This document shows positions 9,359 to 55,699 of a DNA stretch of 64,000 nt, in pieces. The stretch's first letter is position 1, and every line of letters starts with the position of its first letter. Source of the DNA: Rhodospirillaceae bacterium (GTDB lineage: Bacteria; Pseudomonadota; Alphaproteobacteria; MPNO01; UBA2964); contig PBIN01000014.1 in assembly GCA_002720855.1 (NCBI GenBank), positions 248,001-312,000 on the forward strand. The letters are read 5' to 3'. The notes below the pieces were generated by a model. The model was not told the origin of the DNA. It did not search any database and saw only the letters and a list, made by a program, of their open reading frames with translations. A program made the translations under genes and the position numbers.

Positions 9359-10273
9359 TCAAGGATGACGATTGGCCTTTTCTAATTGTAAAAGAATGTC
9401 ATCAAAAAGGTTCTTTAGGGCTCCCGGTTTGGCATTCCGGGAAACTGTAAAGGGCAATACCAGCGCCTGAATATTGGTCTTGCCTGCCAACCAGTTCGAG
9501 GGGTCAGACTGATCGAAGGGCGTTCGCAAAATAGCCTTGGCCTTTGCAGCGGATGCTGTTTTCAGGAGGTTTCTTAAATGCGATACGGTCGGGGGAATAC
9601 CGGGTTTGGCTTCAAGTGATCCGACTTCATTCAGACCCAGCCAACCGATCAGATAACTCCAGGACTTATGATGCACGACAACAGGCATGTTCTTCAGGCC
9701 TGCCGCTTTGGCGTTCCAGCCCTCAATGTTTGCAGACCAACGACGCTCAAAGTTGCTAAAGTTTTGAACGTATGTGGGTTTGTTTTCAGAGTCGATCGCC
9801 GATAACCGTTTCGTGAGTTCACGGGCGAGAACGATAAGGTTTCTGGGGTCGAGATGAACATGCGGATTGCCCTCAGGGTGGACGTCACCCAAGCTGCGAT
9901 CGACGACGGCTGGTATCTCACGGACGGCCACGTGCTGGGCGGCCATAAAGTGTCCTGGTTTTCCGGGTCGAACGTTTGCTCGGGCACCTCGTTGCATCAA
10001 TAGCGGCAGCCAACCGACCTCAAGTCCCGCCCCTGAGCAGAAAACCATGTCGGCGCGGCGAACTTTGGCAATAAGGCTTGGCCGGGCACGAACATGATGA
10101 GCGTCTTGTTTTTCATGTGTTGCGGAATATGCGGAGACTTTATCGCCGCCAATTTCCTTTGCCAGAGCGGCCCATTCGGGTTCGCAGGCAAATACACGAA
10201 GATCGGCAATTGCCGGGGTGGGCAATGCCCACCCCGCCAATATTGCTGGAACAATACATAATTTCCTAAACAT
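9359..10273 (-). CDS. znuA: Periplasmic zinc-binding protein of an ABC transporter, ZnuA-like
   Basis: 304 residues with a Sec signal peptide (MFRKLCIVPAILAGWALP, cleavage after AIA). It belongs to the cluster A-I metal-binding proteins: likely ligands are His in QDAHHVRARPS, His in GNPHVHLDPRN, His in VVVHHKSWSY and Asp in TPFDQSDPS. The long His/Asp-rich loop of Escherichia coli ZnuA is absent. It captures Zn2+ (possibly Mn2+) in the periplasm for the ZnuB-like permease. It starts 10 bases after the outer-membrane protein gene, so the two are co-transcribed from the Zur-controlled promoter near 12030. Confidence 0.88.
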   Translation of the reverse strand: MFRKLCIVPAILAGWALPTPAIADLRVFACEPEWAALAKEIGGDKVSAYSATHEKQDAHHVRARPSLIAKVRRADMVFCSGAGLEVGWLPLLMQRGARANVRPGKPGHFMAAQHVAVREIPAVVDRSLGDVHPEGNPHVHLDPRNLIVLARELTKRLSAIDSENKPTYVQNFSNFERRWSANIEGWNAKAAGLKNMPVVVHHKSWSYLIGWLGLNEVGSLEAKPGIPPTVSHLRNLLKTASAAKAKAILRTPFDQSDPSNWLAGKTNIQALVLPFTVSRNAKPGALKNLFDDILLQLEKANRHP

Positions 10274-34849: not shown

Positions 34850-35713
34850 ATGCCGATGCAGATTGCGCCTTATTCAACTGCTCTTGGTGCAGAGATCACT
34901 GGTGTGAGCCTGTCAGCGACCTGCGACGACGAACTGATTGCCGAGATCAAGGCTGCGCTGCATGAACATCTGGTTTTGGTCATTCGCGATCAGGACCTGT
35001 CGCCCGGTGAACAGGTAGCGTTCAGTGAAAGGTTTGGCGATTTGGTGGTTCGGGTGTCGGGTGAGTTTCTGCATCCCGAATATCCGCCCGTGCTTATCCT
35101 GTCGAACCGGGTGATCGATGGCAAATCCGAAGGGGCGACCGACGCCTATGCCGGTTCTCACTGGCATTCCGACCTGACCTATGCCGAACGGCCGAGTTTC
35201 GGCTCAATGCTGCATGCACTCGAAGTGGCGGAAGAAGGTGGTGATACCGCCTGGGGAAACATGTATGCCGCCTATGATGCGCTACCTGATGAAACCAAAA
35301 TCCGGATCGACGATCTCAAGGCTATCCATGTGCGGGATCGCCGCCGCAATCCGCGTGCCGGGATACCGGGCGATTTCGATCGCGACGTAAATGCCTATTA
35401 CAACATTAAAGTACCTGACTCGCGGCATCCGATGGTTCGCACTCATCCGGTAACAGGGCGCAAAACTCTATATGTATCGCCGCGCTTCACGGTCGCCATA
35501 GAAGGGATGGATGATGCGGAAGGCCAGCCACTTCTCGACGAACTGTTCGAGCATCAAAAGAAACCGGAATTTATCTTCCAGCATAAATGGCGGGTCGGTG
35601 ATCTGGTGTTTTGGGACAACAGCGCGACCATCCATCTTGCCTGTGGCGGGATCAAGCCGCCCGGCGTGCGAAAACTCCATCGAACGTCCATTGCCGGAGA
35701 AGTGCCTTATTGA
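34850..35713 (+). CDS. TauD/TfdA family 2-oxoglutarate dioxygenase
   Basis: 287 residues. Iron ligands: His and Asp in GSHWHSDLTY and a distal His in DNSATIHLACGG; the 2-oxoglutarate Arg follows in RKLHRTS. It has TauD-type features (GAEITGVSLS at the start, EFIFQHKWRVGDLVFWDN before the distal His, in part KWRVGDLVFWDN). It oxidises a substrate with O2 and 2-oxoglutarate, giving succinate. It lacks the SNIREDGxPIG...LPDG block shared by the five other dioxygenases of this window, so it belongs to a different branch. Monocistronic. Confidence 0.88.
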   Translation: MPMQIAPYSTALGAEITGVSLSATCDDELIAEIKAALHEHLVLVIRDQDLSPGEQVAFSERFGDLVVRVSGEFLHPEYPPVLILSNRVIDGKSEGATDAYAGSHWHSDLTYAERPSFGSMLHALEVAEEGGDTAWGNMYAAYDALPDETKIRIDDLKAIHVRDRRRNPRAGIPGDFDRDVNAYYNIKVPDSRHPMVRTHPVTGRKTLYVSPRFTVAIEGMDDAEGQPLLDELFEHQKKPEFIFQHKWRVGDLVFWDNSATIHLACGGIKPPGVRKLHRTSIAGEVPY

Positions 35714-41645: not shown

Positions 41646-43043
41646 ATGAGTGAAAACGAAATCCGCCAGGTTGGACTTGTCGGCCTGGGTACCATGGGGC
41701 GTGCCCTTGCTGGTGCGTTGGCGCGCGAAGAATTCGACGTATTTGCCGTTGAGCCGCTCGCGTCCGATGTAAAGGAAGTTCCGTCGGGAGTTACTTTGGA
41801 AGGCGATATTTCATCGATGGTGGCGGCTTTGCTACCGCCGCGTCGGATCTTACTCATGGTAACGGCGGGCGAACCGGTTGATGGTGTTCTTGATCAGCTT
41901 GGGCCAATTCTCGAAACGGGTGACGTGGTGATCGACGGAGGAAATTCCAATTTTATCGATACTGATCGCCGGTCTACGGCAATGGAAGGCGAGGGAATCG
42001 GATATGTCGGTGCGGGAATTTCGGGCGGTGAAGAAGGCGCGCGGAACGGTGCGTCTGTCATGACCGGTGGTTCCGATGAGGCTTTCGCAGTAGTTTCAGA
42101 AATTCTCGAAGCAATTTCGGCTAAATCAGAAGGAAAAGTTTGTTGTGCTCTTCTAGGTTCTGGTGGTGCCGGACATTTCGTCAAAATGGTTCACAACGGA
42201 ATCGAATACGGGTTGATGCAGGCGATTGGCGAAGCCTACCTGCTTCTGAAAAATGGATTGAAACTGGCTCCCAATGAATGTGCATCAATTTTTGAGCATT
42301 GGAATACGGGTGCGTTGAATTCTTTTCTCGTCGGAATCACCGCCGACATCTTACGAAAACCTGATGACCAGAGTGGCGAGTCCCTTATCGAGTTAATTGA
42401 TGATGCCGCGGCGCAGACTGGCACCGGCCGTTGGATGGTCAGCGAAGCCATGGCGCTTGGTGTCGCCGTGCCGACAATTGCTGAAGCCGTTGCCGCCAGG
42501 AGCCTGTCCGGTGATCGCGACGTGCGAGACGCTGTTCGACATAATTTGTCGCCGAAGACAGATGAACGCGAATTTTCGGCCGACAATGTCCGGGATGCTC
42601 TGTTGTCGTCATTTCTGGCCTGTTACGCGCAGGGCTTTGCGGTGCTTTCCGCCGGATCTGAAAAATATGATTGGCCGCATAGTGAGAAAGAAATTGCCGC
42701 CATTTGGCAGCACGGCTGTATTATCCGATCGGCGATTCTGGGAACGATAGAACAGGCGTATGATGAACAGCCAGACTTGCCACATCTCTTTGCTTCAGAG
42801 GGTATCGTCGATCCTTTAAATGAGGCGCAGCAAGGGACGCGTGAAACGGTTACCGCTGCTGTGCAGAATGGGGTGCCTGTTCCAGCCCTTTCATCCGCTC
42901 TGGCTTATCTCGACGGTTTCGCGGCAGATCGCTTATGGACGTCTCTTACCCAGGCACAGCGCGACTATTTCGGTGCGCATCGCTATCGTCGCACGGACCG
43001 AGATGGATCATTCCATAGCGATTGGCCGGGTGGAGGTGACTAG
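41646..43043 (+). CDS. gnd: 6-phosphogluconate dehydrogenase (decarboxylating), probably NAD-preferring
   Basis: 465 residues, full length. NAD(P) motif VGLGTMGRALA (12-22), catalytic Lys and Glu in GHFVKMVHNGIEYG, and the second domain with EHWNTGALNSFLV. It converts 6-phosphogluconate to ribulose 5-phosphate, CO2 and a reduced coenzyme. At the 2'-phosphate site, where NADP enzymes have Asn-Arg-Thr, this protein has Glu36-Pro37-Leu38 (FAVEPLAS), and an acidic residue there normally selects NAD. No other pentose-phosphate genes are close. Its stop overlaps the convergent GMC gene by 4 bases. Confidence 0.92.
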   Translation: MSENEIRQVGLVGLGTMGRALAGALAREEFDVFAVEPLASDVKEVPSGVTLEGDISSMVAALLPPRRILLMVTAGEPVDGVLDQLGPILETGDVVIDGGNSNFIDTDRRSTAMEGEGIGYVGAGISGGEEGARNGASVMTGGSDEAFAVVSEILEAISAKSEGKVCCALLGSGGAGHFVKMVHNGIEYGLMQAIGEAYLLLKNGLKLAPNECASIFEHWNTGALNSFLVGITADILRKPDDQSGESLIELIDDAAAQTGTGRWMVSEAMALGVAVPTIAEAVAARSLSGDRDVRDAVRHNLSPKTDEREFSADNVRDALLSSFLACYAQGFAVLSAGSEKYDWPHSEKEIAAIWQHGCIIRSAILGTIEQAYDEQPDLPHLFASEGIVDPLNEAQQGTRETVTAAVQNGVPVPALSSALAYLDGFAADRLWTSLTQAQRDYFGAHRYRRTDRDGSFHSDWPGGGD

Positions 43044-44680
43044 ACCCCTTCGGCTGCCGGAAGCGGATCAACGCCCTTGATCATATCAACAGCCTTCTCC
43101 GCGATCATCAGCACCGCGGCATTGATGTTCCCTGAAACCAAATCCGGCATGGCCGCCGCGTCCACTACGCGGAGATTTTCAACGCCACGGACTTTCAGTT
43201 CCGGATCAAGTACAGCCTCTTCGCCAGTACCCATGGGACAGGTGCAGGACGGGTGATGGGCTGTCACCGTGGTGCGGCGAATCCAGTCATCGATCTGATC
43301 GTCCGTTTTGACGTCAGGACCCGGCGCAAGTTCGACACCGCGCCACTTGTCAAGTGCAGGCTGTGTCATGATATCGCGAATACGTTTAACACCATCGCGC
43401 AGCTTCGGTAGATCGTTTGGACTGGAGAAGAAATTCTGAATGATCCGCGGCTTGTCACGTGGGTCGGATGACCGGAGTAGCACCTCGCCACGGCTTTCCG
43501 GATGAAGTAGAACCGGCCGCATGCCAAAACCATCCGTGTAAGGCTTTTTAATTCCCGGGAACCAGAGATGGGCCCCTGGAGGTGCACCCCGGAACATAAA
43601 CTGGAGATCAGGAACCACCGATTCCGGACGCGTCTTGATAAAGCCGTGCAATCCACCGGGGAGTACAGTCGCGCGTCCACTCTTAAAGAAATAAGCCTGC
43701 AGCATGGCAAGTGCCATTCTGTCAAACCGCATGAGATCGCGGAATTTGCCGTAGTTCGGGCGGGTGTAATGTACAAGACAGGCCATGTGGTCCTGAAGGT
43801 TCTTGCCAACGCCCTTTAGATCGACAACCGGCTCAATACCAACATCTTTCAAGTGATCGGCGGGGCCTATTCCTGAGAGCATCATCAATTGGGGCGACCC
43901 GAACACCCCGCCTGACAGCAGGACTTCACGATCGGCGTGGGCTTTTATCATCTTGCCATTCTGCGAATATTCCACGCCGACGGCTTTGGTGCCTTCCATG
44001 ATGATTTGGGTGGCATAGGCTTTCTTGGCAATTGTTAAATTGTGACGGGACTTTGCGGGGTGCAGATAAGCCACCGCAGCCGAACAACGCTCGCCGCCGC
44101 GCTGCGTTGATTGCGAGACGCCAATCCCCTCAGAGTCGCCGCCGTTGTAATCATCTGTGAGCTTATAGCCCGCATCGACACAGGCTTTTTTCCAGTCGTC
44201 CAGCAATGGATCGTCATTCTTGGCCCACTGCGTCTGCATCGGACCGCCCTTGCCACGATATTCGTTTTCCTCGCCTTCCCAGTCTTCGCCCCGTTTCATG
44301 TAGGGCAGGATGTCTGCGTAGGACCAGCCTACCGCCCCTTTTTGTGCCCAGCGGTCGTAATCCCCGCGATGTCCGCGGACATAGGCCATGACATTGATTG
44401 AGCTTGAACCGCCAATAACTTTGCCGCGCATGGCTTCGATTTCGCGGCCAGCGACGCTATCTTCCGCTTCAGCATCGAAGCCCCAGTCATGCATGCGATG
44501 CTCGTGCATTTTACCCATGCCGAGCGGTATCTGGATGAGGGGGTCTTTATCGCTGCCGCCCGCTTCAAGAATGAGGACATTTACGCTGGGATCCTCGCTC
44601 AAGCGTCCCGCCAAAATGCAGCCGGCTGATCCTGCGCCTACGATTATGTAGTCATATTTCTTACCGTCACTCATCCCCAA
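43040..44680 (-). CDS. GMC family oxidoreductase
   Basis: 546 residues, related to the GMC protein at 29153: IIVGAGSAGCILAGRLSED at the start, GGSSSINVMAYVRGHRGDYD, and the C-terminal TAHHPSCTCPMG with the active-site His and SGNINAAVLMIAEKAVD. FAD-dependent alcohol oxidation is expected. Its substrate may differ from the 29153 enzyme because the substrate domains diverge. Alone, reading toward gnd; it shares a 157-base divergent promoter region with the UbiD operon. Confidence 0.9.
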   Translation of the reverse strand: MGMSDGKKYDYIIVGAGSAGCILAGRLSEDPSVNVLILEAGGSDKDPLIQIPLGMGKMHEHRMHDWGFDAEAEDSVAGREIEAMRGKVIGGSSSINVMAYVRGHRGDYDRWAQKGAVGWSYADILPYMKRGEDWEGEENEYRGKGGPMQTQWAKNDDPLLDDWKKACVDAGYKLTDDYNGGDSEGIGVSQSTQRGGERCSAAVAYLHPAKSRHNLTIAKKAYATQIIMEGTKAVGVEYSQNGKMIKAHADREVLLSGGVFGSPQLMMLSGIGPADHLKDVGIEPVVDLKGVGKNLQDHMACLVHYTRPNYGKFRDLMRFDRMALAMLQAYFFKSGRATVLPGGLHGFIKTRPESVVPDLQFMFRGAPPGAHLWFPGIKKPYTDGFGMRPVLLHPESRGEVLLRSSDPRDKPRIIQNFFSSPNDLPKLRDGVKRIRDIMTQPALDKWRGVELAPGPDVKTDDQIDDWIRRTTVTAHHPSCTCPMGTGEEAVLDPELKVRGVENLRVVDAAAMPDLVSGNINAAVLMIAEKAVDMIKGVDPLPAAEGV

Positions 44681-44837
44681 TTCCTTTGCCTTTAATTCTC
44701 AAAAAATCGTCATATTCGGTAGGGTCTGTGTACACCGAAGCCGGGCATGCGAAAACCCCCATCACCTTATGCATCCTGCCGTTGACAGGACCGTTCTGGT
44801 TCCGCAATCTGGCGGTCAAATCAAGGAGATATAAAAG

Positions 44838-46244
44838 ATGCCGCATACACTCAGGTCATTTCTGGAAAACATCGACAATCGTATTCTGAACATCCATGAC
44901 GAAGTCGATCCGGTCAATCAGATCGGTTACCTCTGCTCGGAAAGTCGGCATCCCTTAATGTTCCATAATTTGGAAGGATTCGATGGCTGGAAACTAACCG
45001 ATATCCTGATTAAAGACCGCAAGGGTCAGGCGGCCGCACTTGGTCTGGAAAAAGACAACGAGGTCTGTCCGTTTCTCGCCAAGCAAATGGCAGCGGGTAG
45101 CGGAAATTCGGTCATGGTCGATGATGGTCCGGTCAAGGAGGTAAAGCTGATCGGAAAGGATGCAGATCTTCGAAAACTGCCGATCCCGATCCATAGTCAT
45201 GGTGATGCCGGACGTTATCTGGGATCCGGCGTTACGATCACCCGCGATCCCGAAACCGGTATTCGGAATGAGTCGATCCTGCGTGTTCAGTTGACGGACG
45301 ACCCACACAAGGCACCGTTCTGGATGGCAGCGCGGCACAACTACCAGCATTATCTCAAATATGTTGAACGGGATGAGCCAATGCCAATGGCCTTTGCGAT
45401 AGGGCTGCACCCTGTCTACGAGATCATGTCCAACTGGTCGGGTATCCATAAGGATTTCGATGAGCTCGAATATGCCGCGGGCGTTCTTGGTGAAGATGTT
45501 GAGATGATCAAATGCGAGACGATTGATCTTGAAGTTCCAGCGCATGCCGAAGTGGTCATTGAGGGCACCGTTCATCCGACGGAGCGGATGATGGAGGGAC
45601 CTTTTGGCGAGTTCACCAATTTCGGCTTTGGGGCTGAAGGTCCGGCGCCGGTCTTTACCTGTTCAGCCATTACCCATCGCAAGGATCCGATATTCCGTCA
45701 TATGCAGGCGACCTGGTTTACAGATCACCAGCCTCTTATCACGCTTCCGATGGAAGCGACCTATTACAACCGTCTGCGCGACACACAGGGAAATACCAAT
45801 GTGCTTGATGTCTTTGTACCGCCCTGGGCATCGCAGTTTCTGATGATCGTTCAGGTTGAAGCTAAGTGGGACGGGCAGGTCAACGATATGCTGATGGCTG
45901 CACTTTCCGGTCCGAACCTGCACGTTAAAACCGTGATCGCAGTCGACGAAGATGTCGATATTTATAATGCAGAAGATATCCTTTGGGCGATGACCACACG
46001 CGTTGATCCTGCTCAGCACGTGAAAATTCAGCCTGGCTCGCGTTTGCATCCGCTGGATGCCGTTATTCCGGAAGTCGGCGATGAATACACGGTCATGCGG
46101 ATCGGTGGTAAGATGGGTATTGATGCGACCAAGCCCGCCACCTGGCGCGCCAAAGACCGCGAGAAATTCCAGCGTGTGGATCCGATGGGCAAAGGCGATG
46201 ATGCTATTGCCAAGCTTCTCGAGATGGTTCGCCAGCCGGTATAG
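44838..46244 (+). CDS. UbiD family decarboxylase (prenyl-FMN dependent)
   Basis: 468 residues. A good ribosome site (AAGGAGAT) precedes the ATG. UbiD features: SESRHPLMFHN, KLPIPIHSHGDAGRYLGSGVTITRD (in part, SHGDAGRYLGSGVTI), and the metal/prFMN-binding EGPFGEFTNFG with the catalytic Glu set of Fdc1/AroY-type enzymes. It reversibly decarboxylates an aromatic or unsaturated acid. The prenyl-transferase UbiX needed to make the cofactor is not in the window. First gene of a putative operon with a 2-oxoglutarate dioxygenase (9 bases on) and a molybdenum hydroxylase large subunit. Confidence 0.92.
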   Translation: MPHTLRSFLENIDNRILNIHDEVDPVNQIGYLCSESRHPLMFHNLEGFDGWKLTDILIKDRKGQAAALGLEKDNEVCPFLAKQMAAGSGNSVMVDDGPVKEVKLIGKDADLRKLPIPIHSHGDAGRYLGSGVTITRDPETGIRNESILRVQLTDDPHKAPFWMAARHNYQHYLKYVERDEPMPMAFAIGLHPVYEIMSNWSGIHKDFDELEYAAGVLGEDVEMIKCETIDLEVPAHAEVVIEGTVHPTERMMEGPFGEFTNFGFGAEGPAPVFTCSAITHRKDPIFRHMQATWFTDHQPLITLPMEATYYNRLRDTQGNTNVLDVFVPPWASQFLMIVQVEAKWDGQVNDMLMAALSGPNLHVKTVIAVDEDVDIYNAEDILWAMTTRVDPAQHVKIQPGSRLHPLDAVIPEVGDEYTVMRIGGKMGIDATKPATWRAKDREKFQRVDPMGKGDDAIAKLLEMVRQPV

Positions 46245-46253
46245 GAGGCAGCG

Positions 46254-47114
46254 ATGACGACAGACACAATACCGTTCCAGCTTGAAAAACTGACACCGCA
46301 TATCGGCGCGGAGGTAAAAGGTATTGATCTAAACGTCGAGCAGGACGAAGAGACAATGGCCGCGCTTAAACAGGCGTGGCTCGAGAACATTGTGTTGCTG
46401 TTTCGGGGGCAGGAGCTGACGCAAGAGGCACAGCTCCGCGCCACAGAATTCTTTGGTGAAATCGGATATCTGGCGCGGCCCGCCAATGAATATCCTGTCG
46501 GGTATGACAAGTTGTTGCCCAACGTCATGTTAATTTCCAACATTCGTGAAAATGGTGAGCCGATCGGTGCGTTGCCGGATGGCGAGATGATGTTTCACCA
46601 CGATATGTTGCACGCTGAGATCCCGCATAAAGGAACGATGCTCTACTCGGTCGAAATTCCGAGTAAAGGTGGTCATACGCTATTTGCTAGCGGATATGCC
46701 GCCTACGAGTCGTTGCCGGATGATATCCGTGAGCCACTCGAAGGTCGCACGGCAAAACACCATTACAATTACGGATCGACGAAAAAGGGTGACGGCAAGG
46801 GCACCAAAGCGTTTTCAGATTCCGAACATCCGGTTTTCCGTACTCATGAAGAGACCGGCCGCAAGGCGATTTATGTCAACCGCCTTATGACTGAAGAGAT
46901 TGTCGGTCTACCAAAAGAGGAAAGTGATCGGCTTTTGGATGCTCTATTCGACCAAACAGAAAAACCCGAATTCGTCTATGAGCATATCTGGAATGTTGGC
47001 GACGTACTTCTGTGGGATAATCGTTGCTCATCGCATGCGCGTACTGACTTTCCGGACGGCGAAAGACGCCTCATGTTGCGGACCACAATAGAGGGTGACA
47101 CCAAGCCCTACTAA
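46254..47114 (+). CDS. TauD/TfdA family 2-oxoglutarate dioxygenase
   Basis: 286 residues, nearest relative in this window of the four-gene array at 52210-55699. It shares SNIREnGxPIG...LPDG...MMFHxD, with His115 and Asp117 as iron ligands, the distal His in WDNRCSSHARTD and the 2-oxoglutarate Arg in GERRLMLRTT. Good GGAGGCAGCG before the ATG. It starts 9 bases after the UbiD stop, and the Mo-hydroxylase gene starts 28 bases after it, so the three are co-transcribed. Substrate unknown; a demethylation or hydroxylation in the same pathway as the decarboxylase is inferred. Confidence 0.9.
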   Translation: MTTDTIPFQLEKLTPHIGAEVKGIDLNVEQDEETMAALKQAWLENIVLLFRGQELTQEAQLRATEFFGEIGYLARPANEYPVGYDKLLPNVMLISNIRENGEPIGALPDGEMMFHHDMLHAEIPHKGTMLYSVEIPSKGGHTLFASGYAAYESLPDDIREPLEGRTAKHHYNYGSTKKGDGKGTKAFSDSEHPVFRTHEETGRKAIYVNRLMTEEIVGLPKEESDRLLDALFDQTEKPEFVYEHIWNVGDVLLWDNRCSSHARTDFPDGERRLMLRTTIEGDTKPY

Positions 47115-47142: not shown

Positions 47143-49500
47143 ATGGCTGAAAACCCATTTGGAATTGGACAGCCTGTTCGGCGCAAAGAAGATGTTCGAC
47201 TTCTGACAGGCGCCGGAAATTACACCGATGATACACGCCTTCCTGGCCAGCTATACGGTTATTTCGTGCGCAGCCCGCACGCCCATGCAAGTGTCGATGC
47301 GATTGACGTAAGCGCTGCAGAAAAGATGCAGGGCGTGATCGCGGTTCTTACCGCAACAGATTATTTTGCCGATGAACTGGGGCCGCTGCCGCATGTTCCA
47401 AATCCAGCCCACATAACGCGCCCAAAAACGCCTGCATTTGAAAATGCGGATGGGTCAAAGGTGTTTCAGGGGGAACATTTTCCACTGGCGCAGGACAAGG
47501 TACGTCATGTTGGTGAGCCCGTTGCAATTGTGTTAGCTGAAACCGAGGCTCAGGCAATTGACGCGGCAGAATGCGTTGAGGTCCAGTATACACCACTAGC
47601 AGCGGTTACCGATGTCAAACGCGCAATAACGGCGAGCGCGCCACAGATTTGGGAAGACGCACCGGGCAATGTCTGTTTTGACTCCGAACTTGGTGATCCT
47701 GGTGCAGTAGAGGCGGCATTCGCTGACGCATCGCAAATCGTTGCAATGACGCTGAGCAACAATCGCGTGACTGCGGTGTCTATGGAGCCCCGCAGTGCGA
47801 TTGGTAAGTACTTTCCAGATAGAGATCACTACACATTAATATCCGGTAGTCAGGGTTCGCACAGAATTAAGGACCCTCTGGTCGCGCTACTTGGCTGTGA
47901 GGCTGATCAGGTGCGCGTGGTCTGTGACGATGTTGGTGGCGGATTTGGCATGCGCAACTGGCTCTTTCCAGAGCTGGCGCTGGTAGCTTGGGCGGCGAAA
48001 CGTAGCGGTCAGCCGGTAAGGTGGGTTTCGACCCGATCAGAGGCATTCCTAAGTGATATGCAGGCCCGGGATCTTGTGACAACCGCCGAACTCGCACTGG
48101 ATGAGGCAGGAAAATTTCTCGCCATTCGGCTCGATCACCTGGGTAATATCGGTGCCCATACCATGTCATTCGTACCGCTGGCCAACGGCGTTCGACTGGT
48201 CACCAGTATCTACGATATTCCGGCTGCCTATGTCCGGGTACGAGGGGTCCTAACCAATACCCTGCCGACCGGGCCGTATCGTGGCGCGGGGCGCCCGGAA
48301 GCGATGTTCAATATCGAACGGTTGATTGATGAAGCTGCGACCCAAATCGGGATGGATCGCATCGACCTCCGGAGGAGGAACCTGATTCCACAAGAGAAGC
48401 TGCCCTATGAAAACCCTGTTGAGCTGACATATGAATGTGGGGCGTTTGCCGAGAATATGGAAGCGTCTCTGGCCTTGGCGGACTGGAACGGATTTGCTCG
48501 ACGACGCAAGAAAGCGGCCTCTGGCGGATTGCTCCGTGGCATCGGACTATCCAACTATGTCGAAACCCCTGTCGGTTTTCCACGTGAGGTTTGCGATATA
48601 TCCATCGAGCCCAAGGGGCGTGTGACGGTTGCCGTTGGCACACAGAGCCACGGTCAGGGACATGAGACGAGTTTCGCACAGGTGATCGCCGAGGAGCTTG
48701 GCGTACCCTTTGACCAAATCGATATTATTTTTGGCGATACGGACGTTGTTCCTGATGGCGGAGGGACGCATTCCAATCGCTCGATGCGGATTGCAGGAAC
48801 GCTGATGGTACAAGGTTGCCAGACGATCATTCGACGCGGAAAGGCGTTGGCGGCAGAATTTCTCGAAGCGGCTGAGGACGATATTGATTATTCCGCAGGT
48901 TTATTTTTCGTTACCGGAACTGATCGCAACATCAGTTTGTTCTCCTTGGCGGAGAAAGCGCGGAACAGCGGAGACAGCTTTATTGCCGAGGAACGCTTTC
49001 AGGGCCGTATACCAGCCTATCCGACAGGGTGTGCCGTCGCCGAAGTCGAAATTGATCCAGAAACCGGTACCGTAAGGGTTTGCAGTTGGACGGCGATAGA
49101 TGACGTGGGTCGCGTGATCAACCCTATGATCGTCGAAGGCCAAACACATGGTGGTATCGCGCAAGGTATTGGTCAGGCTTTGCTTGAAGACATCGCCTAT
49201 GACGATGAAACAGGTCAGCTTACTGGGGGGTCATTTCTTGACTATTGCATGCCCCGGGCCGACGACCTGCCTTTTTTCACTACAGAAACTGTCAATAACG
49301 CGCCGACGCAGGGTAACCCCCTCGGTGTAAAAGGCGGCGGTGAAGGTGGTACAACGCCGGCGCCAGCGGCGCTGATCAACGCTATTGTTGACGCGCTTAG
49401 GCCGGTTGGGGTTAATGACCTTGAAATGCCGACGACGCCGCTACGAGTATGGCAGGCAATTCAGGATGCCAAGCGCGATCGACCGCTAAACCGAAATTAG
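47143..49500 (+). CDS. Xanthine-dehydrogenase family molybdopterin-binding subunit (aldehyde oxidase/CoxL type II)
   Basis: 785 residues from ATG 47143; a GTG at 47095 lies inside the preceding gene and is less likely. Mo-hydroxylase large subunit: FGIGQPVRRKEDVRLLTGAG at the start, PYRGAGRPEA, the GAG-type active-site loop of type II enzymes rather than the AYRCSFR of true CO dehydrogenase, and the catalytic Glu in KGGGEGGTTPA. It hydroxylates an aldehyde or N-heterocycle with water. Neither the [2Fe-2S] small subunit nor the FAD subunit is encoded next to it; they must come from elsewhere. Confidence 0.9.
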   Translation: MAENPFGIGQPVRRKEDVRLLTGAGNYTDDTRLPGQLYGYFVRSPHAHASVDAIDVSAAEKMQGVIAVLTATDYFADELGPLPHVPNPAHITRPKTPAFENADGSKVFQGEHFPLAQDKVRHVGEPVAIVLAETEAQAIDAAECVEVQYTPLAAVTDVKRAITASAPQIWEDAPGNVCFDSELGDPGAVEAAFADASQIVAMTLSNNRVTAVSMEPRSAIGKYFPDRDHYTLISGSQGSHRIKDPLVALLGCEADQVRVVCDDVGGGFGMRNWLFPELALVAWAAKRSGQPVRWVSTRSEAFLSDMQARDLVTTAELALDEAGKFLAIRLDHLGNIGAHTMSFVPLANGVRLVTSIYDIPAAYVRVRGVLTNTLPTGPYRGAGRPEAMFNIERLIDEAATQIGMDRIDLRRRNLIPQEKLPYENPVELTYECGAFAENMEASLALADWNGFARRRKKAASGGLLRGIGLSNYVETPVGFPREVCDISIEPKGRVTVAVGTQSHGQGHETSFAQVIAEELGVPFDQIDIIFGDTDVVPDGGGTHSNRSMRIAGTLMVQGCQTIIRRGKALAAEFLEAAEDDIDYSAGLFFVTGTDRNISLFSLAEKARNSGDSFIAEERFQGRIPAYPTGCAVAEVEIDPETGTVRVCSWTAIDDVGRVINPMIVEGQTHGGIAQGIGQALLEDIAYDDETGQLTGGSFLDYCMPRADDLPFFTTETVNNAPTQGNPLGVKGGGEGGTTPAPAALINAIVDALRPVGVNDLEMPTTPLRVWQAIQDAKRDRPLNRN

Positions 49501-50292
49501 CTGGCGTGCTCCTTTGAAAACCAGGACGGCGGCTCCGGCCAGCAGCAAAATCTGAAGCGCCACATAAAACCGCCGATCACTCGTTACTTTGAAAGCATGG
49601 GCGCCAAGCCAGGTTGCCAAATAGACAATCGGTGCAAGTACAAGGCCTTCCAGCATAAGCATGGGCGTTATTAGTCCTGCGGTAGCAAGCGCAAATGCGC
49701 GCATGAACATCGTCATAGCGGAGAGTATTACATTGGTGCCGCGCAGTGCTTCTGGCGTGGGACAGGCATGCTTCAGATAGACGACCAGAAAATAAAATGC
49801 TCCGGCACCGCTGAGCCCTCCCATAATTCCGCCAACGACGGAAAACCCTCCAGTAATGGCTTTCGAGCGGACGTCCATGTTCTCAAGCAGCCTTTCGACG
49901 AGTTTAATCGCGTCCATCAAAATAATGAGAACGATCAACGACCCGAGAATGATCTGTAACGCTACACCGGACAGGATGGTGAAGACCCAGGTGCCGAACA
50001 GTGTTCCTGCAGTCATGCCAAGAATGAGGGGTTTGGTTACCTGCCAGTCAGCAGTTTTAAAGCCTGAAGGCAGGAGATGTAGCTGCGCGACGATTGTGGT
50101 CATCAATGCAAGAAGGATGGCGTGATGAGGGCCCAGAATAAATGTTGTGGCCACAACAATTGGCATGTTGGATCCAAAGCCAAAAGCACCGCGAATAAAG
50201 CAACCGGCTGCATGTGCCAACGCAACCATAGAAATTGCAAACCAGGAAAGATTTTCGAAGGGCGTCAGACCCGGGGAAAGCCAATCAAACAT
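49486..50292 (-). CDS. TauE/SafE family membrane exporter
   Basis: 268 residues, about eight membrane helices with the DUF81 pattern: a Gly-rich first half (GAFGFGSNMPIVVATTFILG, in part FGFGSNMPIV) and a related second half with GGFSVVGGIMGGLSGAGAFY (in part, GGIMGGLSGAGA). It is expected to move a sulfonate, sulfite or other organic anion across the inner membrane. Its 3' end overlaps the convergent Mo-hydroxylase gene by 15 bases. Position beside the decarboxylase/oxygenase block suggests transport of a substrate or product; this is inferred. Confidence 0.85.
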   Translation of the reverse strand: MFDWLSPGLTPFENLSWFAISMVALAHAAGCFIRGAFGFGSNMPIVVATTFILGPHHAILLALMTTIVAQLHLLPSGFKTADWQVTKPLILGMTAGTLFGTWVFTILSGVALQIILGSLIVLIILMDAIKLVERLLENMDVRSKAITGGFSVVGGIMGGLSGAGAFYFLVVYLKHACPTPEALRGTNVILSAMTMFMRAFALATAGLITPMLMLEGLVLAPIVYLATWLGAHAFKVTSDRRFYVALQILLLAGAAVLVFKGARQLISV

Positions 50293-50514: not shown

Positions 50515-50961
50515 TCAACCATTCATTTTTTCAACATGGGCGATCAGTTTATCCAGCGATTTATGAAGGGCTCCCAATTCGCGGCGCGTTAGTGTGGACA
50601 CCAGCGCCTGATATCGCTCATTGGCCACAGGCAATATTCTTTCATACAGATCCTGACCGTTTGCCGTTAGCGAAAGACGATAGCTGCGACGGTCATCAGG
50701 GTTACGTTTGCGCTGAATCGTGCCGGACTTTTCCAGACGCTGAATTGCCCGGCTAATGGCCATTTTGTCCATTGCCCACCGGTCAGTGATTTCCGTCGCG
50801 GTTGATCTTGGATAGCGGGCAAGCGTCAATACCACACGCCATTCGGGCACGGTAATACCTGCATCATCAAGATGATCGCCGTAGGCGCCGCCAATCATAT
50901 TCGCCAGAACATGAATAGCGGAAAGAATATCGTCGGCAGATTTTACGGTGTCGAGTGGCAT
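50515..50961 (-). CDS. MarR family transcriptional regulator
   Basis: 148 residues with the MarR winged helix: ITVPEWRVVLTLARYP, STATEITDRWAMDKMAISRAIQRLEKSG (in part, DKMAISRAIQRLEKSG as the recognition helix), and the wing RKRNPDDRRSYRLSLT. It lies 29 bases downstream of the cyclodeaminase-like gene and so is probably in the same operon. It could control this operon and the divergent dioxygenase array across the 124-base gap at 52086-52209; the ligand is probably an aromatic or amino-acid derivative. The only clear DNA-binding regulator in the window. Confidence 0.9.
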   Translation of the reverse strand: MPLDTVKSADDILSAIHVLANMIGGAYGDHLDDAGITVPEWRVVLTLARYPRSTATEITDRWAMDKMAISRAIQRLEKSGTIQRKRNPDDRRSYRLSLTANGQDLYERILPVANERYQALVSTLTRRELGALHKSLDKLIAHVEKMNG

Positions 50962-50990: not shown

Positions 50991-52085
50991 TTACTGCGTG
51001 CCGGGCACGGGAATATCCATCTCCGTTCCGCGACCTTGCTCTTTGGCGCGGTCGAACACAATTTTGGCAAGCGCCATATCGGCTGCTGCTGTCCCGTTAT
51101 TATTGAAGTGATAGGTAATCTGCTCGTCGGATGTACGGCCGGGATGAGCACCGGCGAGAACCGAACCCAATGAATTAATGTCATCTTCAGTAATGATGCC
51201 TTGCTGCATTGGATCGTAGAGCCCAGCCTGTTTTTCCATGGTTACAGACTCGAGATGGTTCACCACAATGACATCGGCGCGCCGGACAGTTTCATCGTCA
51301 TTTTCGCGGCGCCCGCTTTTTAACCATCCACCTTCAACCAATGCGCTATTGGAACCCACCACCGTTACAACGTGCTGTCCGGGTTCCAGCAACGATCCAT
51401 CGAAAACAGGAACGTTTGAATCTGTTGCGGAAATGACAACATCGGAATCTTTGATAACTTCTTCCGGTGTTTCGACGGGCACGACTTCTTTTTCGATTAG
51501 CGGCGCCATCTTGTCGCAAAACGCCACGCGGTTTTCCGGATTACGACTATAGACTTTAACTTTCTCGATATCGCGAACGGCGTCTATCGCAAGAATTTTG
51601 TTTACGGCCTGGCCGCCCGAGCCGAACAAACCGAAGACTTTCGCATCCTTGCGGGCAAGCGCATCGACGCCAACTCCTGTTGTTGCACCCGTACGGAATG
51701 CCATGATGCTGGTAAAGCCAGTGCGATCATCGAAAATCTCGCCCATCATCATGCCGTCGAGCTTTGCGGTTTCAGAATTCCACAGCAGATAAACGGGATG
51801 TTCACGGTAGGGATATGACTGGTTACTCCCTTCGTGAGAGACCATTTCACCGCGGGTCAATGAACCGATGACACCAAGACCCGGAATGCCGCCGGGGAAG
51901 TTTGATACCCGCACGCCGTCGGGTGAATGAACTCGCCGCCGTGGTGCATTTCCGATGGGAAACTCGTCGGCTTCCTTATATCCTTGGGCGATTGCGGCAA
52001 CCGCTTCTTCCATATTGATGAGACCCTTGATCTCTTCTGGCCCCAAAATAAGGACCGCGTTCCGATTTGGTCGGTCGGTAGTCAT
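50991..52085 (-). CDS. Ornithine cyclodeaminase / mu-crystallin family protein
   Basis: 364 residues. Family features: GPEEIKGLINMEEAVAAIAQGY (in part, MEEAVAAIAQGYKEAD), FRTGATTGVGVDALARKDAKVFGLFGSGGQA (in part, KVFGLFGSGGQA, the NAD motif), and VVISATDSNVPVFDG. Members act as cyclodeaminases, imine reductases or dehydrogenases on amino-acid-like substrates. It is divergent from the dioxygenase array and heads an operon with marR. It could release ammonia or reduce an imine formed by the array; the reaction cannot be chosen from sequence. Confidence 0.88.
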   Translation of the reverse strand: MTTDRPNRNAVLILGPEEIKGLINMEEAVAAIAQGYKEADEFPIGNAPRRRVHSPDGVRVSNFPGGIPGLGVIGSLTRGEMVSHEGSNQSYPYREHPVYLLWNSETAKLDGMMMGEIFDDRTGFTSIMAFRTGATTGVGVDALARKDAKVFGLFGSGGQAVNKILAIDAVRDIEKVKVYSRNPENRVAFCDKMAPLIEKEVVPVETPEEVIKDSDVVISATDSNVPVFDGSLLEPGQHVVTVVGSNSALVEGGWLKSGRRENDDETVRRADVIVVNHLESVTMEKQAGLYDPMQQGIITEDDINSLGSVLAGAHPGRTSDEQITYHFNNNGTAAADMALAKIVFDRAKEQGRGTEMDIPVPGTQ

Positions 52086-52172: not shown

Positions 52173-52201
52173 TTGAAGAAATGCGTCAATTCGCCTATAA
52201 T
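52173..52201 (+). promoter_or_regulatory. Strong sigma-70 promoter of the dioxygenase array, giving a near-leaderless mRNA
   Basis: TTGAAG at 52173-52178 and a perfect TATAAT at 52196-52201 are separated by 17 bases. Transcription should begin at about 52208-52209, one or two bases before the ATG at 52210. No ribosome site precedes that ATG, while the next genes of the array have them. The start is secure because all four paralogues align from the same Met. Confidence 0.6.
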
Positions 52202-52209
52202 CCCGACCC

Positions 52210-53082
52210 ATGAGCATAAAAGTAGAACCACTTGATGCCCCAACCGGCGCGCGCATAACCGGTGTCGATATTGGTAGCGAACTCGATGCCGATACCTACG
52301 CGGCGATTCACAGTGCCTGGCTCGAATATCAGGTTCTGGTTTTTCCGGATCAGGACATGACGGAAGAGGATCAGATTCGTTTCACCAAGCATTGGGGGGA
52401 AATGCCACAGCGCAAACGCTATGCAGGGCGGCGCGAAGAAAATCGACGCGCGCATGAGTCGGTTATGCTAATCAGCAACATCCGCGAAGACGGTGAGCCG
52501 ATAGGCTCGCTGCCGGATGGCGACATGATGTTTCATTCCGACGGCCAGTATGACGAGCACCCCTATCGCTACACTATGCTCTATGCGCTTGAGGTGCCGA
52601 AAATCGGCGGCGATACACTTTTTGCTGATTTGTACAAAGCCTACGAAACCTTACCGAGTAGCTTGAAAAACCGGCTGCAAAATGTCGAGGCTCAACACGG
52701 ATATTATGCCGGGCGCCATGTGACACCTGAAATTCTTGCAACGCTTGGTATTGAACGTGTTGCTGATAGTTGGGCTCATCCCGTATTTACGGCCCACGAA
52801 GAGACAGGCCGGCCTGTTCTGTATGTTAGCCGTTTGCTAACGTTAGGGTTGCAAGGATTGCCCGAAGAAGAAGGCAATGACATCCTGGATCAGCTGCTAG
52901 ATCATGTCGAACGCGAAGAATTCGTGTATGGACATGACTGGTCGCCGGGCGATTTTGTAATTTGGGACAATCGTTGTCTTAACCACGCGCGAACAGATTT
53001 TTCGGGTGGGGAAAGGCGGCTTCTTCGCAGAACAACCGTGCAGGGTGTAAGGCCCGAAGCGGCAATCGCGAAGGCGGCATAG
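52210..53082 (+). CDS. TauD/TfdA dioxygenase, array member 1
   Basis: 290 residues. Complete active site: His109 and Asp111 (MMFHSDG), distal His259 in NRCLNHARTD, and the 2-oxoglutarate residues Arg270 and Arg274 in GERRLLRRTT, at the TauD spacings of +11 and +15 from the distal His. Shared block SNIREDGEPIGSLPDGD. Divergent from the cyclodeaminase operon and first of four paralogues in one direction. No ribosome site; see the promoter entry. Substrate unknown. Confidence 0.9.
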   Translation: MSIKVEPLDAPTGARITGVDIGSELDADTYAAIHSAWLEYQVLVFPDQDMTEEDQIRFTKHWGEMPQRKRYAGRREENRRAHESVMLISNIREDGEPIGSLPDGDMMFHSDGQYDEHPYRYTMLYALEVPKIGGDTLFADLYKAYETLPSSLKNRLQNVEAQHGYYAGRHVTPEILATLGIERVADSWAHPVFTAHEETGRPVLYVSRLLTLGLQGLPEEEGNDILDQLLDHVEREEFVYGHDWSPGDFVIWDNRCLNHARTDFSGGERRLLRRTTVQGVRPEAAIAKAA

Positions 53083-53104
53083 AGAAATCGAAGGAGAATA
53101 GACC

Positions 53105-53956
53105 ATGCAAATTGAAAAGCTGACCGACGTTGTCGGTGCGCGCATTACCGGTCTCGATCTTTCGCAGGAACTTGATGCAGAAACGCACGGCAAATTGCAT
53201 CAGGCCTGGCTCGATCATCTGGTGCTGGTCATTCCGGACCAGGATTTAACGCAGGAAGAACAAATTCGCTTTGCCCGCACATGGGGAGAGTTTCCCAAAA
53301 GAGAGCGATACAAGAAGCGTGCCGAGAAGGACACAGCCGACAAATCTGTCATGCTGGTTAGCAATATCCGCAAAGACGGCAAACCCATCGGTTCTCTGCC
53401 GGATGGCGAGATGATGTTCCACACTGACGGTGCCTACGACGAACATCCCTATAACTACACTATGCTCTATGCCATTGAGTTGCCGAGCACGGGTGGCAAT
53501 ACACAATTCGCGAATATGTATGCTGCCTACGAAACTTTGTCGGACGATCTGAAACGCAAACTCGCGAACTGCACGGCGCATCACGGTTATTATTCGGGAA
53601 CGGTGCAGCGTGGAGCGCCGCAAGGGCATTTTAATGGAGAGTATTCTCATCCCGTATTTATCGAGCACAATGAAACCGGCCGGACAGCCCTTTTCATCAG
53701 CCGCTTGCTGACGCTGCGGATAAATGAGCTTTCGCAGGAAGAAAGCGACGAGATCCTGACCTTTCTCTTCGATCATTCCGAAAAGCGCGACTTCATCTAC
53801 GAACATGAATGGACTGTCGGTGATCTCGTGATGTGGGATAATCGCTGTTTAAATCATGCCCGGACCGATTTTCCGCGAAGCGAACGGCGGTTGTTGCGGC
53901 GGAACGTTATTCAGGGTGTGCGCCCCGAACGCGGCCGCGTCGATGTCGCTGCCTGA
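53105..53956 (+). CDS. TauD/TfdA dioxygenase, array member 2
   Basis: 283 residues, 22 bases after member 1, with AAGGAG before the ATG. Iron ligands His106, Asp108 (MMFHTDG) and the distal His in NRCLNHARTD; ERRLLRRN keeps both Arg. Compared with member 1 it has a different loop after the first iron ligands (YYSGTVQRGAPQGHFNGE region, in part), which usually lines the substrate pocket, so a different substrate is likely. It starts a run of genes with normal ribosome sites, in contrast to member 1. Confidence 0.9.
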   Translation: MQIEKLTDVVGARITGLDLSQELDAETHGKLHQAWLDHLVLVIPDQDLTQEEQIRFARTWGEFPKRERYKKRAEKDTADKSVMLVSNIRKDGKPIGSLPDGEMMFHTDGAYDEHPYNYTMLYAIELPSTGGNTQFANMYAAYETLSDDLKRKLANCTAHHGYYSGTVQRGAPQGHFNGEYSHPVFIEHNETGRTALFISRLLTLRINELSQEESDEILTFLFDHSEKRDFIYEHEWTVGDLVMWDNRCLNHARTDFPRSERRLLRRNVIQGVRPERGRVDVAA

Positions 53957-53965
53957 GGAGCCATT

Positions 53966-54823
53966 ATGAGCATTACAGTCGAGTCTATTTCGAATGCCAT
54001 CGGCGCACGTGTCACCGATATCGATCTTCGCGAAGAAATGTCGGAAGAGACAGTCAAAGCGGTTCATCAGGCCTGGATGGACTATCAGGTGCTGGTCTTC
54101 CCTGGTCAGGACCTAAGCGAAGAGGATCAGGTACGGTTCACAGCGCACTTTGGCGAAATCGGCGGACGAAACCGCAAGGTCCCGACGGCGGAGGGCGACC
54201 GGGTAAAACACCGCGGTGTTATGCTGGTCAGCAATATTCGTGAAGACGGCAAACCTATCGGGTCGTTGCCCGATGGCGAAATGATGTTCCACTCAGACGG
54301 TGCGTATGCCAGACGTCCGTTTCGCTACACTCTGCTCTATGCAATCGAGGTTCCCTCGGTTGGTGGCAACACAAAGTTTGCCAATATGTATAAAGCCTAT
54401 GACGCGCTGCCCGATGAATTGAAAGCCAAACTCGCCAACTGTCAGGCCGAGCATGTTTATTACGCCGGTAGTGTTCAAAAGGATGCGCCATCAAAATCGC
54501 TTACCGGCGCGCGCCTCCGCCCGGTTTTTATCAAGCATGAAGAGACCGGCCGAACGGCACTCTATGTCAGCCGCCTTCTGACCACGCGCATCGAAGGTAT
54601 GGATGAGGCTGAAAGCGATGCCATCCTTGAGCAATTGTTTGATATTTCAGAGCGCGACGATTTTGTGTACGAACATAAGTGGACGCCTGGTGATTTTGTG
54701 ATGTGGGACAATCGGTGCAGCAATCATGCGCGGACAGATTTCTCCGAAGGGGAGCGCCGCCTGTTGCGCCGGACAACGGTTTTTGGCACTGACCTCATTC
54801 CAGCGTTCGCTGCGGCGGCATAG
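53966..54823 (+). CDS. TauD/TfdA dioxygenase, array member 3
   Basis: 285 residues, 9 bases after member 2, with GAGGAG before the ATG. His109 and Asp111 (MMFHSDG), distal His in NRCSNHARTD and GERRLLRRTT are intact. The stretch after the first ligands reads AYARRPFRYTLLYA, shared more closely with member 4 (FAKQPYRYTLLYA) than with members 1 and 2, so members 3 and 4 look like a later duplication. Cytoplasmic enzyme; substrate unknown. Confidence 0.9.
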   Translation: MSITVESISNAIGARVTDIDLREEMSEETVKAVHQAWMDYQVLVFPGQDLSEEDQVRFTAHFGEIGGRNRKVPTAEGDRVKHRGVMLVSNIREDGKPIGSLPDGEMMFHSDGAYARRPFRYTLLYAIEVPSVGGNTKFANMYKAYDALPDELKAKLANCQAEHVYYAGSVQKDAPSKSLTGARLRPVFIKHEETGRTALYVSRLLTTRIEGMDEAESDAILEQLFDISERDDFVYEHKWTPGDFVMWDNRCSNHARTDFSEGERRLLRRTTVFGTDLIPAFAAAA

Positions 54824-54844
54824 CGGCCGGGTACAGGTGACGTA

Positions 54845-55699
54845 ATGACAATTAAAATTGAGCCAATATCAGACGCTGTGGGCGTAAGTATCACCGGGAT
54901 CGATCTCGGTACCGAACTGGATGAAGCAAGCTATCAGGCGGTACACCGCGCCTGGCTTGACCATCATGTGCTGGTCTTTCCCGGTCAGGATTTAGCCGAA
55001 GAAGACCAGGTCCGCTTTACAGGGTGGTTTGGCGAGGTCGGTCAGCGAATTCGAAAAATAGACTCGCCGGAAGGCAGCCGGGTCTCCCACCCCGGTACCA
55101 TGTTGATCAGCAATATTCGTGAAGACGGCAAACCCATCGGCTCACTGCCGGATGGCGAAATGATGTACCACTCAGATGGTGCGTTCGCCAAGCAACCCTA
55201 TCGATACACTCTGCTCTATGCCCTTGAAGTGCCTTCAGTTGGGGGCAACACGCTGTTTGCCAATTTGCACAAGGCCTATGACGAGTTACCGGCGGCACTG
55301 AAGAATAAGCTTCAGGGCTGTCACGGCGAGCATATTTACTATGCCAATAACGGCATGACCGGCCCGAAGAAGTCACTTAGTGGAATTCGGCAACACCCGA
55401 TTTTTATCGCTCATGAAGAAACCGGGCGCACCGCGATCTACGCCAATCGGCTGATGACGCACAAAATTGTCGAATTGCCCGAAGACGAAAGCGATGATGT
55501 TCTGGCGCAGCTGCTAGATCACATTGAGAAGCCGGAATTCATTTACGATCATAAATGGACGCCGGGCGATTTTGTGATCTGGGACAATCGCTGTCTCAAC
55601 CACGCACGCAGCGACTTTTCTGCCGGCGAGCGCCGTCTGCTGCGCCGCACAACGGTGGTTGGAGTTGACCCTCTTCCTGCACAGGCAGAAGCGGCTTAG
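54845..55699 (+). CDS. TauD/TfdA dioxygenase, array member 4
   Basis: 284 residues, 21 bases after member 3. Only a weak ribosome site (AGGTGACG) precedes the ATG. Active site complete: His109, Asp111 (MMYHSDG, Tyr replacing Phe), distal His in NRCLNHARSD and GERRLLRRTT. The substrate loop contains YYANNGMTGPKKSLSG, related to the YYAGSVQKDAPSKSLTG of member 3. Last gene of the array; no clear terminator was seen, and the next gene is convergent about 90 bases away. Confidence 0.9.
   Translation: MTIKIEPISDAVGVSITGIDLGTELDEASYQAVHRAWLDHHVLVFPGQDLAEEDQVRFTGWFGEVGQRIRKIDSPEGSRVSHPGTMLISNIREDGKPIGSLPDGEMMYHSDGAFAKQPYRYTLLYALEVPSVGGNTLFANLHKAYDELPAALKNKLQGCHGEHIYYANNGMTGPKKSLSGIRQHPIFIAHEETGRTAIYANRLMTHKIVELPEDESDDVLAQLLDHIEKPEFIYDHKWTPGDFVIWDNRCLNHARSDFSAGERRLLRRTTVVGVDPLPAQAEAA

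Follow-up and report, generated by a model that had tools for sequence, protein, structure and literature searches.

Why does a bacterial genome keep four dioxygenase genes of one family side by side, and are they successive steps of one pathway, spare copies, or enzymes with separate tasks? In the 64,000-nucleotide stretch of alphaproteobacterial DNA analyzed here (the window), the genes D1-D4 run head to tail on one strand over positions 52210-55699, intervals of 22, 9 and 21 bp lying between them (Table 1), so that the open reading frame coordinates bear out the preliminary description of four consecutive, same-strand TauD-type genes of 283-290 residues separated by 9-22 bases. Their scores against the Pfam TauD domain (PF02668), 210-227 bits, or 210-229 bits with the nearby D5 included, place them in the family, the gathering cut-off being 27 bits. 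We consider it probable that D1-D4 form one operon of working 2-oxoglutarate (2OG)/Fe(II) oxygenases, duplicated before the genera of the bacterial family split and each kept for a substrate of its own. The best reading of the sequences is a catabolic operon whose enzymes would act on diverged small acidic substrates; the enzymes themselves are of a known kind.

Table 1. Features of the dioxygenase array and its surroundings, with positions in the window
Feature	Position	Strand	Remarks
TauE/SafE-family anion exporter (predicted)	49486-50292	-	syntenic in genus
MarR-family regulator	50515-50961	-	syntenic in G001, G002, G003, G007, G010
Ornithine cyclodeaminase/mu-crystallin-family (imine reductase-like) gene	50991-52085	-	divergent from array
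Sigma-70-type promoter-like site TTGAAG-17-TATAAT	52173-52201	+	pattern scan; -10 ends 8 nt before D1 ATG
D1, TauD/TfdA-family 2OG/Fe(II) dioxygenase	52210-53082	+	290 aa; TPEIL, a 5-residue insertion found in D1 orthologues only
D2, TauD/TfdA-family dioxygenase	53105-53956	+	283 aa
D3, TauD/TfdA-family dioxygenase	53966-54823	+	285 aa; H109, D111, H254, R265, R269
D4, TauD/TfdA-family dioxygenase	54845-55699	+	284 aa; sister of D3
D5, TauD-family dioxygenase of another clade	46254-47114	+	downstream of UbiD; outside array

The mutual identity of the four proteins is 53-65%. The closest pair is members 3 and 4, as had been noticed beforehand, with 64.8% identity against 53-60% for the remaining pairs. 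All four, and D5, carry the block SNIR-DG-PIG-LPDG, which is missing from the dioxygenase encoded at 34850-35713, again in agreement with the preliminary description. In its strict form the block occurs in 6 of the 44 core TauD proteins of the genome, with degenerate forms in many more, and it is widespread in Alphaproteobacteria, where 282 confirmed relatives were found in the genome collection.

Alignment to TauD identified the HxD motif, the distal His and the equivalents of T126, R266 and R270 in D1-D4, and the iron-ligand and 2OG columns H99, D101, H255 and R266 are occupied in D1-D5. The HxD...H iron site had been described as complete in all four, which it is; the accompanying claim of both 2-oxoglutarate arginines holds for one residue only, the equivalent of R266, the 2OG Arg of E. 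coli TauD, while the other corresponds to R270, which binds the sulfonate (an anion) of the TauD substrate. The AlphaFold model of D3 (mean pLDDT 91.4) has the double-stranded beta-helix fold of the TauD/TfdA family, and its best matches among solved structures are the phenoxypropionate dioxygenases 5bk9 and 6d0o (5bk9: E 1.9e-27, TM 0.84). The nearest solved relatives of the array are TfdA/RdpA aryloxyalkanoate dioxygenases (AAD-1, AAD-2; PDB 5bke, 5bk9, 6d0o), with which it has the fold, the HxD...H iron site and both C-terminal arginines in common; identity in the structure alignments is 27-31%. D1-D4 do not group with TfdA itself (2,4-D dioxygenase), which pairs in the tree with another paralogue of the same genome, C15:57297 (local support 0.94).

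D1-D4 do not look like taurine dioxygenase either. TauD of E. coli and Pseudomonas (PDB 1gqw, 3pvj) resembles the array in the PF02668 domain, the iron site and the R266 and R270 equivalents, but the array lacks the residues of the taurine pocket and stays below the cut-off of the taurine dioxygenase equivalog (NF007104), with 146-163 bits for D1-D4 against 313. The pocket residues H70, Y73, F159 and F206 are replaced in D1-D4 by R, Y/K, a gap and L/M, respectively, the alignment of the loop being uncertain, and neither H70, F206 nor the S158-F159 loop is conserved. Because Arg occupies both the TauD H70 column and the R270 position in D1-D4, an anionic substrate is suggested. These two arginines, together with the TauE/SafE-family gene that keeps synteny with the array within the genus, could also be taken to indicate sulfonate scavenging, i.e. 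TauD-like desulfonation followed by export of sulfite through the TauE-type protein. We regard this as unlikely in view of the shortfall against the equivalog cut-off, the altered taurine pocket and the aryloxyalkanoate dioxygenases as nearest solved relatives.

In the mechanism that we propose for the operon of separately specialized oxygenases, each enzyme would use 2OG and O2 to form an Fe(IV)-oxo species by which a carbon adjacent to O, N or S is hydroxylated. The substrate, a small anionic molecule, would be bound by two arginines, R269 in D3 numbering and the one in the position of TauD H70. Once hydroxylated, the product would break down by O-, N- or S-dealkylation or by desulfonation, in the manner of TfdA/RdpA and TauD. 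The products might then pass to the neighboring imine-reductase- and decarboxylase-type enzymes.

How old the array is was assessed with an IQ-TREE phylogeny of 64 sequences (LG+G4, 1000 UFBoot). A scattering of the four genes over unrelated groups, raised beforehand as a possible objection, was not seen, as D1-D4 fall with their close relatives into a single clade (UFBoot 99), in which D3 and D4 are sisters (UFBoot 100). Each of the four genes has a separate orthologue clade in related genomes (UFBoot 96-100), and mean identity is 73-81% within orthologue groups as compared to 54-65% between paralogues. The recent duplication that the preliminary description proposed is thereby ruled out: both genus-mates and a second genus of the family carry the genes as distinct orthologue groups, and paralogues are not closer to each other than orthologues are. 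Instead, the separate groups and the higher identity within than between them indicate duplications that predate the genus, and tandem duplication would have given rise to D1-D4 ahead of the split between the genera of the family.

The array itself could be followed through these relatives. All four genes occur in the same order in this genome (G000), in G008 of the same genus and in G010 of another genus of the family, while an array of genes 1-3 is found in G001, G002, G007 and TMED123, and also in G003, with a frameshifted third gene. D4 lies outside the array in G001, G002 and G003, and the search of G007 (98% complete) yielded no D4 orthologue. No strong match to the array was seen in G005 and G006, which are about 70% complete. 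Gene-1-type relatives were found further out, in G021, G023 and G025, which belong to a different family of the same order, at loci where, as far as read, the other three genes are lacking. In G003 (isolate A_MB73), the frameshifts of D3 and D4 (L141:8901-9737 and L146:5805-6632) fall in a similar region of the protein and stem from decay or assembly error.

This distribution bears on the idea that D1-D4 act in turn on one molecule, in a four-step oxidation pathway. The close, operon-like spacing of the genes (9-22 bp), a single conserved promoter-like site and the four-gene order retained as far as another genus (G008 and G010) would all suit such a pathway. Yet the displacement or loss from view of D4 in several relatives (G001-G003 and the nearly complete G007, respectively) argues against an obligatory sequence of four steps, as do the D1-type genes standing alone at the loci read in another family, so that action in sequence on one molecule, offered earlier as one option, is disfavored and appears improbable.

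Purifying selection on each of D1-D4 is supported by dN/dS values against orthologues of about 0.02-0.10 where dS was measurable, many dS values being saturated. Pseudogenes were ruled out in the window by intact genes and low dN/dS, frameshifts being confined to D3 and D4 of G003. Furthermore, 35 alignment columns are conserved inside each orthologue group and different between the groups. Among them are columns 66-71 and 114, column 110, which lies between the iron ligands, and the 167-186 loop, where gene 1 has its five-residue insertion; they lie partly near the active site. Such positions support the view that D1-D4 hold different specificities that have been kept. The suggested divergence to different substrates therefore agrees with the paralogue-specific conserved substitutions and the purifying selection, though its description as recent does not. 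That D1-D4 are redundant copies with overlapping function, kept for dosage or still drifting, would fit the frameshifted copies in G003 and the three-gene TauD runs elsewhere in the order (G014, G015, G017 and G023), whose recurrence implies that duplication is frequent, but is hardly probable for paralogues just 53-65% identical that each have low dN/dS and conserved positions of their own.

The surroundings add further detail to the predicted operon. The preliminary description had suggested looking for the array and its flanking genes in other genomes, and besides the four-gene arrays of G008 and G010 this recovered cyclodeaminase-type and MarR genes in synteny in relatives. The cyclodeaminase-type gene is among the best-conserved neighbors, being 90-95% identical in relatives and retained even in G010; the nearest solved relatives of its product are pyrroline-2-carboxylate reductase and alanine dehydrogenase. 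Elsewhere in the genome there is another divergent OCD-TauD pair, resembling that at 50991/52210 (G000:C8:8367-9353, minus strand, and 9463-10242, plus strand). The MarR protein is a candidate regulator of the divergent promoters. A pattern scan gave no more promoter hits in the region than in shuffles, and comparison of seven close genomes showed that six relatives have TTTGA[AT]-18-TAnAnT in this position, with a divergent sequence in G010. The -10 box is conserved 6-8 nt upstream of the start codon in most of the seven, and its closeness to the D1 ATG predicts that D1-D4 are expressed as one, nearly leaderless transcript. A homologue of 4,5-dihydroxyphthalate decarboxylase is the next same-strand gene after gene 3 in G001, G002 and G007 (the G007 copy matches PDB 9jp7, E 2e-55), and follows gene 4 after 3 bp in G010; in the window it is absent after the array, and the nearest copy in this genome, 51% identical, lies elsewhere. 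Points against the operon reading are the frameshifted D3 and D4 in G003 and the inconstant neighbors, with the decarboxylase absent here and D4 displaced in relatives.

The array is set in a genome of 3.58 Mb with about 50 TauD-family genes, a number that ranks fourth among 289 sampled Alphaproteobacteria, after two genus-mates and G077, by first-look candidate counts. Homologues of UbiD (36), LLM (25), OCD (17) and dihydroxyphthalate decarboxylase (14) are also numerous, i.e. several families have expanded by paralogues in this genome. Its other tandem TauD runs comprise two or three genes; among further TauD-rich Alphaproteobacteria, G077 with its 67 genes has pairs only, and in G093 (36 genes) no tandem runs were seen. 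TauD genes are no nearer UbiD, OCD, decarboxylase or LLM genes than expected by chance (genome-wide contig-rotation test, P 0.08-0.72), and when 88 genes in the vicinity of TauD genes were surveyed with Pfam, no partner family dominated. Since TauD genes do not co-cluster with these families genome-wide, neighbors are weak guides to function, and we draw nothing from them beyond the conserved locus.

Within this expansion, the array may be one module for substrate range. Marine SAR202 bacteria carry old, retained oxygenase paralogues, which have been read as widening their range of recalcitrant organic matter (PMC6946804). The present genome is similar in belonging to a marine lineage with such paralogues, whereas the families differ, with FMNO, enolase and ring-hydroxylating dioxygenases expanded in SAR202 (PMC6946804) and TauD, plus many UbiD, OCD and LLM, here. 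A search of the open-access literature found no published description of such an operon, array or expansion. It is possible, though doubtful, that D1-D4 represent a catabolic operon new to the literature, in which four old paralogues for distinct acids work alongside an imine-reductase-type enzyme and, in relatives, one of the dihydroxyphthalate-decarboxylase type. If so, it would be the biggest tandem group in a TauD expansion (about 50 genes, beside 36 UbiD) that opens a broad range of dissolved organic acids to these bacteria. The usual annotation of TauD-family genes is taurine dioxygenase. As the array members are unlike the taurine enzymes and the lineage has some 50 TauD genes, this annotation would hide a large unexplored set of oxygenases, for which the array, with four old paralogues in one putative operon, offers a compact set to study the divergence of specificity and the organic acids targeted in the sea.

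Lastly, D5 had been taken for a fifth gene of the same branch. It does have the shared block, but belongs to another clade, together with genes of soil Rhizobiales (UFBoot 100), and this grouping rules it out as a member of the array. Its identity is 62-68% with most of the Rhizobiales genes and 48-51% with D1-D4. At least ten of these Rhizobiales relatives lie near a GMC oxidoreductase gene whose product is 57-63% identical to that encoded at 43040. To judge from these sequences, D5 and the GMC oxidoreductase (window positions 43040-47114) are a separate, widespread and unnamed gene pair.
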